Positions 52,189 to 54,464 of a DNA stretch of 64,000 nucleotides are shown piece by piece. Where the stretch lies: assembly GCA_029228645.1 (NCBI GenBank), contig JAPTHR010000004.1, positions 248,001 through 312,000 of the forward strand. The letters are read 5' to 3'. The notes under the pieces were generated by a model. The model worked only from the letters and a program-made list of their open reading frames with translations, was not told the origin of the DNA and did not search any database. How positions within the stretch are numbered: position 1 is the stretch's first letter; each line of letters begins with the position of its first letter. The stretch is from Gammaproteobacteria bacterium Milos-ODIII6. Lineage in GTDB: Bacteria > Pseudomonadota > Gammaproteobacteria > Chromatiales > Chromatiaceae. Made by a program: the position numbers and the translations under genes.

Positions 52189-52512
52189 CAGGAACTCCAC
52201 ACGTTGACAGAGGACAGGCGAAACGGGCCCAGGATCAAACCTGGTTGCGCCATCGTGCGTCTTTATTCAACGGACTGCGGAAGCAAGGGAGCATGGGCGG
52301 GGGGGAAATGCCGTGACGGTAACCTGATCGGAACATTAATAAAAAATCCGAACCACGCCAAGCGCATCCCATCGATTGCCGGAAAAACCGTGCACATTGC
52401 GAAAAAATATTGACATTTAAGTAATTGCTTATATACTACTTCGCATCGACCAACTGTTGCGTCGAACGACAAATTGAATCGGGTTTTCCAATATTCCTCT
52501 CGGAGACACATC
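52189..52512. other. Intergenic region between trpE and the first globule gene
   Basis: 324 bp. The right part (52400-52512) holds a strong sigma-70 promoter and a 5' leader of about 70 nt for the first sulfur-globule-like gene. The left part should hold the trpE promoter, but none was recognised with confidence. Nothing else is visible. Confidence 0.6.
52410..52437 (+). promoter_or_regulatory. Strong sigma-70 promoter of the first globule gene
   Basis: TTGACA (52410-52415), a 16-bp spacer and TATACT (52432-52437), about 75 bp before the ATG. The same pair with the same spacing precedes the second copy, which supports it. Confidence 0.85.
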
Positions 52513-52824
52513 ATGAAAAAGATTATTGCTATCGCTGCTGTCCTGGCTTCCACTTCTGCCTTCGCTTTCTTCGATTCCTCGAACGGTGGCACCGACGGTC
52601 GTTACAACGGTACCGGTGACTTCGTGGGCAACGGTTCCGGCGAAGGTGAAGCGACCTTCTCCATGAACTTCAAAGGTCGTGGCAAGGCCGATGGCGACTT
52701 CAAAGGCACCGCTGACACCGACGGCAACTGGTACGGCTACGGCTACGACCAGCCCTACGGTTACGGCTACATGCCGCAGGCCCCGATGGCTCCGGTTGCA
52801 CCTGCCGCTCCGGCTGCCCAGTAA
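52513..52824 (+). CDS. Sulfur-globule-envelope-like secreted protein, copy 1
   Basis: 103 residues. Signal peptide MKKIIAIAAVLASTSAFA, then FFDSSNGG, a Gly/Asn-rich segment, FSMNFKGRGKADGDFKG, a Gly-Tyr stretch NWYGYGYDQPYGYGY and a Pro/Ala tail APMAPVAPAAPAAQ. Small, secreted, low-complexity Gly/Tyr-rich proteins with such tails are typical of the Sgp proteins that coat periplasmic sulfur globules in Allochromatium and related sulfur oxidisers. The assignment rests on composition and remembered homologues. Its strong promoter and its own terminator suggest a highly expressed structural protein. CGGAGACACATC precedes the ATG. Confidence 0.65.
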   Translation: MKKIIAIAAVLASTSAFAFFDSSNGGTDGRYNGTGDFVGNGSGEGEATFSMNFKGRGKADGDFKGTADTDGNWYGYGYDQPYGYGYMPQAPMAPVAPAAPAAQ

Positions 52825-52853
52825 TTCAGATCCAATCTGACATTACTTGAAGA

Positions 52854-52884
52854 AAGGCCTGCATCTTCGGATGCAGGCCTTTTT
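52854..52884 (+). terminator. Terminator of globule gene copy 1
   Basis: A perfect stem GGCCTGCATC-TTCG-GATGCAGGCC with a stable UUCG loop, followed by TTTTTG. Confidence 0.93.
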
Positions 52885-52938
52885 GCTTTCTGCCCGGCAC
52901 CCCGAGCAAAAAAATGCCGGAATCTGCGAAAAAGAGTA

Positions 52939-52966
52939 TTGACATTTAATTAAATGCTTATATACT
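52939..52966 (+). promoter_or_regulatory. Strong sigma-70 promoter of the second globule gene
   Basis: TTGACA (52939-52944), a 16-bp spacer and TATACT (52961-52966). Bases after the -35 box (TTTAA) and before the -10 box (TGCTTA) are kept from copy 1. Confidence 0.85.
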
Positions 52967-53044
52967 TCTCCCCATCGACCGAGCAGTTGGGTCGACGAAA
53001 TCTCAACTGGATTCTTTCTGATCGAACATTTTTGGAGACACCAC

Positions 53045-53365
53045 ATGAAAAAGATCATCGCTATCGCAGCTGTCCTGGCCTCCACCTCCGCCTTCGCTTT
53101 CTTCGATTCCTCGAACGGCGGCACCAACGGCGCCTACAACGGCAACGGCGACTTCGTCGGTAACGGTTCGGGCGAAGGCGAAGCTACCTTCTCCATGGAC
53201 TTCAAAGGTCGTGGCAAGGCAGACGGCGACTTCAAAGGCAACGGCGACACCGACGGTAACTGGTACGGCTACGGTTACGACCAGCCCTACGCCGGCTACG
53301 CTCCGTACGCCATGCCGCAGGCTCCGATGGCTCCGGCCGCTCCGGCCGCTCCGGCAGCCCAGTAA
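53045..53365 (+). CDS. Sulfur-globule-envelope-like secreted protein, copy 2
   Basis: 106 residues, a close paralogue of the preceding gene: the first 27 residues are identical, and most of the rest. It differs by NGAYNGNGDF for DGRYNGTGDF, NGDTDG for TADTDG and an added Ala/Tyr motif (AGYAPYAMPQ). Signal peptide cleavage after AFA is expected. The mature part has no Cys, so it would not be disulfide-linked. It carries its own promoter, leader hairpin and terminator. Two or three related envelope proteins per genome are normal for Sgp systems. The AGACACCAC leader end is kept before the ATG. Confidence 0.65.
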   Translation: MKKIIAIAAVLASTSAFAFFDSSNGGTNGAYNGNGDFVGNGSGEGEATFSMDFKGRGKADGDFKGNGDTDGNWYGYGYDQPYAGYAPYAMPQAPMAPAAPAAPAAQ

Positions 53366-53394
53366 TTCAGACACCGTCTGAGATTACCTAAGAA

Positions 53395-53426
53395 GGCCCC
53401 GCATCGTGAGATGCGGGGCCTTTTTT
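53395..53426 (+). terminator. Terminator of globule gene copy 2
   Basis: A perfect stem GGCCCCGCATC-GTGA-GATGCGGGGCC followed by TTTTTT. Confidence 0.93.
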
Positions 53427-53999: not shown

Positions 54000-54308
54000 T
54001 CAGTGGCTCAAAATCCACTCGACCAGTTGCGTGGCCTCTGCGTCTGAGACGTGCGCATTCGGCGGCATCGGGATCGGACCCCAGACGCCGGAGCCACCGG
54101 CCTTGACCTTCGCAGCCAGCATCTCGACCGCGCCGGCATCACCTTTGTACTTGGCCGCCACTTCCTGGTAGGAGGGCCCGACAAGCTTGGCATCGACCTT
54201 GTGACAGCCCATGCAGCCTTTCATCTGGGCCATTGCACCGGTATCCGCCATGGCGGGAGCAGCAGCGACGGCCGCGAGAACAGACAATCCAATCAGTTGT
54301 TTTTTCAT
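54000..54308 (-). CDS. Small monohaem c-type cytochrome
   Basis: 102 residues: signal peptide MKKQLIGLSVLAAVAAAPAMA, haem motif CMGCH (Cys32, Cys35, His36) and the axial Met in WGPIPMPPN. The layout is that of class I cytochrome c551/c552, a periplasmic electron carrier. The ATG at 54308 with GAGGAA before it was chosen; the frame is open further upstream. Close to the globule genes, it could accept electrons from periplasmic sulfur oxidation, but that is inference. Confidence 0.92.
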   Translation of the reverse strand: MKKQLIGLSVLAAVAAAPAMADTGAMAQMKGCMGCHKVDAKLVGPSYQEVAAKYKGDAGAVEMLAAKVKAGGSGVWGPIPMPPNAHVSDAEATQLVEWILSH

Positions 54309-54464
54309 CAATTTTTCCTCTAACAGATTCGGGATGAGGGTGGCTGAAACCGCTTCAAGCCGTGCGAAAAAATGCGCTCCGCAGTATACATGCGGCGAAG
54401 CCAGAGTATCAGACACCCGAAAGGAGCGAAATATTCCGCCTGGACGCAAAAAATTGGCTCGGGT

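Follow-up and report, generated by a model that had tools for sequence, protein, structure and literature searches.

The two adjacent genes at positions 52405-53426 of the window, the whole analysed stretch of 64,000 nucleotides from Gammaproteobacteria bacterium Milos-ODIII6, encode secreted members of the sulfur globule protein (SGP) family, and their host, judged from its gene content, oxidizes sulfur. The explanation that best covers the observations, and which we hold with considerable confidence, is that the two belong to an SGP family of a sulfur oxidizer, each forming a strong transcription unit of its own with a putative repressor palindrome and a 5' stem-loop. While the proteins add to a family already known, interest centers on the operator and the leader they share. 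Through this shared operator, the control of sulfur storage, which is poorly understood, becomes testable: a fixed 20-bp site, which precedes sgp, soxX, and rhd/dsrE2 genes in different families of the Gammaproteobacteria, animal-symbiont relatives included, would serve as a direct probe for the regulator and predicts the membership of a sulfur-storage regulon.

Gene A (52513..52824, + strand) codes for a protein of 103 aa and gene B (53045..53365, + strand) for one of 106 aa. Both proteins start with a signal-like N-terminus of 18 residues (MKKIIAIAAVLASTSAFA), judged by eye to resemble the Sec type and ending in AFA, followed by a Cys-free mature part with a Pro/Ala tail and a composition of ~20-21% Gly, 6-8% Asn, and 8% Tyr. 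Sequence and composition agree with the sequence-only reading, which had described an adjacent pair of secreted, Cys-free, Gly/Asn/Tyr-rich proteins of these lengths. Matches to the Pfam model PF17228 ("Sulphur globule protein"), which we take to be the family of SgpA, SgpB, and SgpC of Allochromatium vinosum, span the mature protein with 62.1 bits for A and 68.1 bits for B against a cut-off of 26.7; since the E-values are 9e-17 and 1e-18, respectively, the resemblance is not due to chance. The proposed identity as SGPs is further borne out by the host, which carries dsrA (C19:194476), soxB (C24:65207), soxX (C2:106508), and DsrE2 (C23:133302; the prefixes denote contigs). In the profile match over the mature protein, the Sec-type signal, and all compositional features, as well as in having several paralogues per genome in sulfur-oxidizing hosts, A and B are like the other SGPs of PF17228. 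They differ in a short N-terminal FFDSS or FWDS in place of WWG-P repeats, in the FSM-x-FKGRGK/GDFKG core of the subgroup of their own genus, whose likeness to SgpA/B/C of A. vinosum runs via the PF17228 profile, and in the six close copies under one operator. The notion of a distinct subgroup holds in a weak sense, with the core FSMxFKGRGK-xxGDFKG common to the genus and its near relatives, but these proteins still fall inside PF17228. A and B are additional members of the known family; a reading as coat proteins is well supported, and they would coat sulfur globules in this organism as well. In the lucinid symbiont Ca. Thiodiazotropha, SgpB is reported to rank with the most highly expressed genes and the most abundant proteins (PMC11171427).

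The interval 52405-53426 fits two complete transcription units, each running from promoter to terminator. The predicted promoter of A (TTGACA-16-TATACT, 52410..52437, + strand) has 11 of 12 consensus bases, and that of B (52939..52966, + strand) matches the same pattern; two such near-consensus sigma-70 promoters were found in the region vs 0.7 expected. The leaders comprise ~65-70 nt, counted from the predicted start. Gene A is followed by a predicted intrinsic terminator with a 15-bp stem and a T run (52851..52884, + strand; the containing segment folds at -30.3 kcal/mol), and gene B by one with a 16-bp stem and a T run (53390..53425, + strand; -38.0 kcal/mol). The Rfam search yielded only matches below the gathering score, positioned over these terminators. 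A 28-bp promoter close to TTGACATTTAAGNAANTGCTTATATACT is common to six of the eight sgp genes of the genome, and when the 28-bp pattern was sought with ≤1 mismatch in the 3.53-Mb genome, exactly six sites emerged, all of them before sgp genes. Thirty-one sgp leaders, taken from this genome and related ones, preserve it, spacer positions included.

Downstream of the promoter, an inverted repeat, mostly TCGAC-loop-GTCGA, starts 8-9 nt past TATACT. It takes the form TCGAC-N10-GTCGA (52446..52465, + strand) where the A transcript is predicted to begin, and TCGACC-N9-GGTCGA (52975..52995, + strand) at the corresponding place in the B transcript. Loop length varies across the leaders from 7 to 11 nt, and the arms covary, with A-U replaced by G-C in five leaders and an extra C-G or U-A pair in others. 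Double changes occur in 4 of 5 pairs (8 cells vs 2.6 in shuffles), and a stem of ≥5 bp lies near the predicted start in 19 of 29 leaders, compared with 1.4 in shuffles. These sequences are most simply read as a 5'-terminal stem-loop of the mRNA, placed there by the predicted start. The repeat might instead be a second DNA operator, to which the identical sequence of the arms TCGAC/GTCGA in most copies lends some weight; however, a spacing of the arms that ranges from 7 to 11 nt is unusual for a dimer site, and the compensatory changes in the arms (A-U to G-C in 5 sequences) speak for pairing in RNA, so that we consider this alternative unlikely. Stem-loops at the very 5' end of a leader, like that of ompA, slow the decay of the mRNA. 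By analogy, the 5' stem-loop probably lengthens the life of the sgp mRNAs: as in the ompA type, the encoded protein is exported and probably abundant, and its transcript carries a short stem-loop a few nt from where it is predicted to begin, with the difference that the transcript start is here predicted from the position of the -10 element.

The second shared element is a palindrome which overlaps the spacer and the -10 element of the promoter. Comparison of sgp upstream regions places the putative operator of A at 52415..52434 (ATTTAAG-TAATTG-CTTATAT) and that of B at 52944..52963 (ATTTAAT-TAAATG-CTTATAT), neither assigned to a strand. Its wider consensus is ATATWAG-N6-CTWATAT, and at the sites in other families the palindrome is the constant element; a scan with the full 28-bp matrix overlooked most of the distant families, for which the palindrome form was required. 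When gapped palindromes were counted without bias across 59 sgp upstream regions, ATAT-N12-ATAT came up 18 times, TATT-N10-AATA 12 times, and TTAG-N6-CTAA 5 times, all nested within ATATTAG-N6-CTAATAT, while the best palindrome in shuffled sequences reached 6. With ≤2 mismatches, ATATWAG-N6-CTWATAT is found in 30 of 59 sgp upstream regions of other genomes vs ~1 in Markov controls, and about half of these 59 regions lack a site at this threshold. The palindrome could be imagined to represent a conserved architecture of strong promoters, i.e. a preference in spacer and -10 that duplication and gene conversion have preserved among sgp genes, and not an operator. Its overlap with the -10 element would fit, as would the copies within the genome, which seem to convert one another (B and its counterpart on C1). 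The symmetric left arm, however, is located in the promoter spacer, to whose sequence RNA polymerase is largely indifferent; moreover, other families lose the -35 element but retain both arms, the reversed pattern occurs just 3 times and permuted half-sites at most 6 times in the sgp upstream regions, and the palindrome precedes unrelated sulfur genes, not recA. Such a purely architectural origin is hence improbable, and an operator is the preferred reading of the palindrome.

The genome itself has additional sites before soxXA (C2:107057; NCBIfam confirms SoxX, the next gene is SoxA by eye), before a rhodanese gene that is followed by DsrE2 (C23:132519), and before genes for a SulP permease and an AhpC-type peroxiredoxin. 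The rhodanese site is identical in a member of the genus (G002) and nearly so in another genome (G007), and a TusA-DsrE2 locus in G010 also has a site. In tests whose pattern was settled in advance, the palindrome was present in soxX upstream regions in 9 of 30 genomes vs 0 of 30 for recA (Fisher p 1e-3), most of the soxX regions being devoid of a site at ≤2 mismatches. In the 1.1 kb before dsrE2, it was present in 12 of 30 genomes vs 0 of 30 for recA in the same window size (Fisher p 6e-5). Because the palindrome was defined from the sgp set itself, only these soxX and dsrE2 tests are independent, though a single genus accounts for three of the rhd/dsrE2 sites. Near dsrA (C19:184000-203000), no palindrome was found. 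Some matches in the genome, such as those at clpS/cspD and tgt, are probably due to chance. Operator-like sites before tgt (tRNA-guanine transglycosylase) occur in two genera (G000, C5:10457; G014, C1:86534) and reflect either chance or a conserved promoter. A site with 1 mismatch before fbp (fructose-1,6-bisphosphatase; C1:389859) gives a hint that the Calvin cycle may be coupled to the supply of sulfur. Another site with 1 mismatch (C1:308309-308331) is located ~115 bases upstream of a gene (L166) for a secreted, Cys-containing, Asp/Gly/Pro/Met-rich protein of 165 aa (DPECWYNPDCNPYDPWDPRYWMEEME...) that has no Pfam match and is possibly another globule-associated protein.

How sulfur oxidizers sense reduced sulfur and turn on their oxidation genes is called little known (PMC10451225). 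SoxR and sHdrR of Hyphomicrobium are repressors that respond to sulfane sulfur and act on sulfur-oxidation genes; ArsR repressors of the SqrR/BigR/SoxR/sHdrR kind exert this repression from intergenic repeats (PMC10451225, PMC12423496), and the regulators studied in the former work are alphaproteobacterial. The genome under study encodes two ArsR proteins with the cysteine pair of the SqrR/BigR subfamily (C1:280131 and C20:246200). The former aligns with BigR (3pqj, E 2e-17), YgaV, and HlyU, with both Cys aligned, and its gene is followed by genes for a rhodanese, secB, and gpsA. Just past gpsA, ~2 kb from this arsR, a perfect palindrome (ATATTAGCTAATACTAATAT) is found at C1:277989-278008. The presumed repressor at the operator is possibly of the SqrR/BigR type, to which the ArsR genes with the Cys pair and the position of the palindromes on promoters of sulfur-oxidation genes (sgp, soxX, rhd/dsrE2) are alike; the likeness is one of sequence, and it differs from the known systems in that no site at ≤3 mismatches was found directly before either ArsR gene, which makes the role of the two candidates a guess. 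The HlyU operator of V. cholerae, as quoted in PMC10509353, was compared by eye and is unlike the palindrome. A literature search with poor coverage of subscription journals returned no description of an ATATWAG-N6-CTWATAT operator, so that its novelty is not secure.

It is supposed that each of the two genes acts as its own strong transcription unit, driven by a sigma-70 promoter close to consensus, with the stem-loop opening its short leader and an intrinsic terminator closing it off. The palindrome would most likely be bound by a dimeric repressor, which is released when reduced sulfur becomes available, that is, when the oxidation of sulfide or thiosulfate raises the level of sulfane sulfur. 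The six close copies with the same operator would then probably supply the bulk of the coat protein as sulfur accumulates, the combination of strong promoters and stabilized mRNAs delivering it in quantity to the periplasm. There, it would enclose the sulfur made by Sox and sulfide-oxidizing enzymes, and this store could later be used by DsrE2/TusA/rhodanese and reverse Dsr. Evenly poised, in our judgement, is the wider proposal that a regulon for the oxidation and storage of sulfur extends over many gammaproteobacterial families, with ATATWAG-N6-CTWATAT as its hitherto undescribed operator, and answers to a sulfur-sensing repressor, supplemented at sgp by an mRNA-stabilizing 5'-terminal stem-loop. 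Such a regulon would encompass sgp, soxXA, and rhd-tusA-dsrE2, and in this genome perhaps also the genes for SulP, fbp, and the peroxiredoxin.

Homologues of the two proteins are concentrated in sulfur oxidizers. Among 369 gammaproteobacterial genomes, SGP was detected in 56, dsrA in 119, and soxB in 162. The SGP genomes contain dsrA in 50 of 56 cases (Fisher p ~4e-22) and dsrA or soxB in 55 of 56 (Fisher p ~3e-19), both tests counting genomes as independent; as genomes within one family are non-independent, the association of SGP with dsr is partly phylogenetic. Homologues in gammaproteobacteria devoid of both genes are accordingly confined to a single genome of this set. A scan of contigs revealed 29 related loci, in records named as Chromatiaceae/Chromatiales, Sedimenticola, Candidatus Thiobius, SUP05, Thioglobus, and tubeworm-symbiont MAGs, further ones being gammaproteobacterial MAGs and one Halieaceae bin. 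In a phylum-wide sample of Pseudomonadota, scored for the presence of SGP only, 6 of 397 genomes besides the one studied here had the family. Three genomes of one family in another class of the phylum (G392, G395, G398) harbor 3-4 SGP genes each. AlphaFold2, applied to a 34-sequence alignment, produced no fold (mean pLDDT 50, pTM 0.12), and a search for relatives of A and B among solved structures found none (best E 0.14). It is very improbable that A and B serve outside the cell as Gly-rich components of the surface or matrix, of a curli-like or adhesin-like kind, unrelated to sulfur storage and similar to SGPs through low-complexity composition: such a composition, the failure to obtain a fold, and a weak match to the curli CsgA model (E 0.03), confined to the signal peptide and its N-terminal surroundings, stand against PF17228 scores more than twice the cut-off that cover the mature protein, the absence of the SGP family from 14 control genomes, its near confinement to dsrA/soxB genomes in gammaproteobacteria, and an operator that the sgp genes share with soxX and rhd/dsrE2. 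A curli relationship was discarded, the CsgA match being restricted to the N-terminal 34 residues.

A search of the genome by pattern and by family revealed 8 SGP genes on six contigs. Five copies (A, B, and those on C1, C2, and C12) are near-identical to one another; one further copy is close (C20:233530), and two are divergent (C25, C6). Apparent internal stops in some copies turned out to be the own ends of those genes. A and B share 87.8% identity in coding DNA and 92% in protein, with a repeat of 258 bp aligned at 88% and a start-to-start spacing of 532. The description as near-identical suits other pairs more: the nearest copy of A, on contig C12, is 97% identical, and that of B, on contig C1 (C1:108388), is 99.7% identical in its coding sequence. 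The proposal that a recent tandem duplication raises the dose was not upheld. A and B each are nearer to a copy on another contig than to one another (88%), and since they are not each other's closest relatives, tandem duplication as the sole origin is rejected; moreover, the family has 8 members, six of one close type. The upstream regions of B and C1:108388 are 80% identical, less than the coding parts, a disparity that points to gene conversion restricted to the coding sequence. Judged from these sequences, gene conversion or dispersed amplification fits better than recent tandem duplication.

Upstream, the sgp pair is bordered by a divergent trpE gene, which is also present in the neighbourhoods of three related sgp genes (L008, L009, L014). 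On its other flank, the pair is adjoined by a gene for a small secreted c-type cytochrome (window positions 54000-54449, - strand; KQLIGLSVLAAVAAAPAMADTGAMAQMKGCMGCH).
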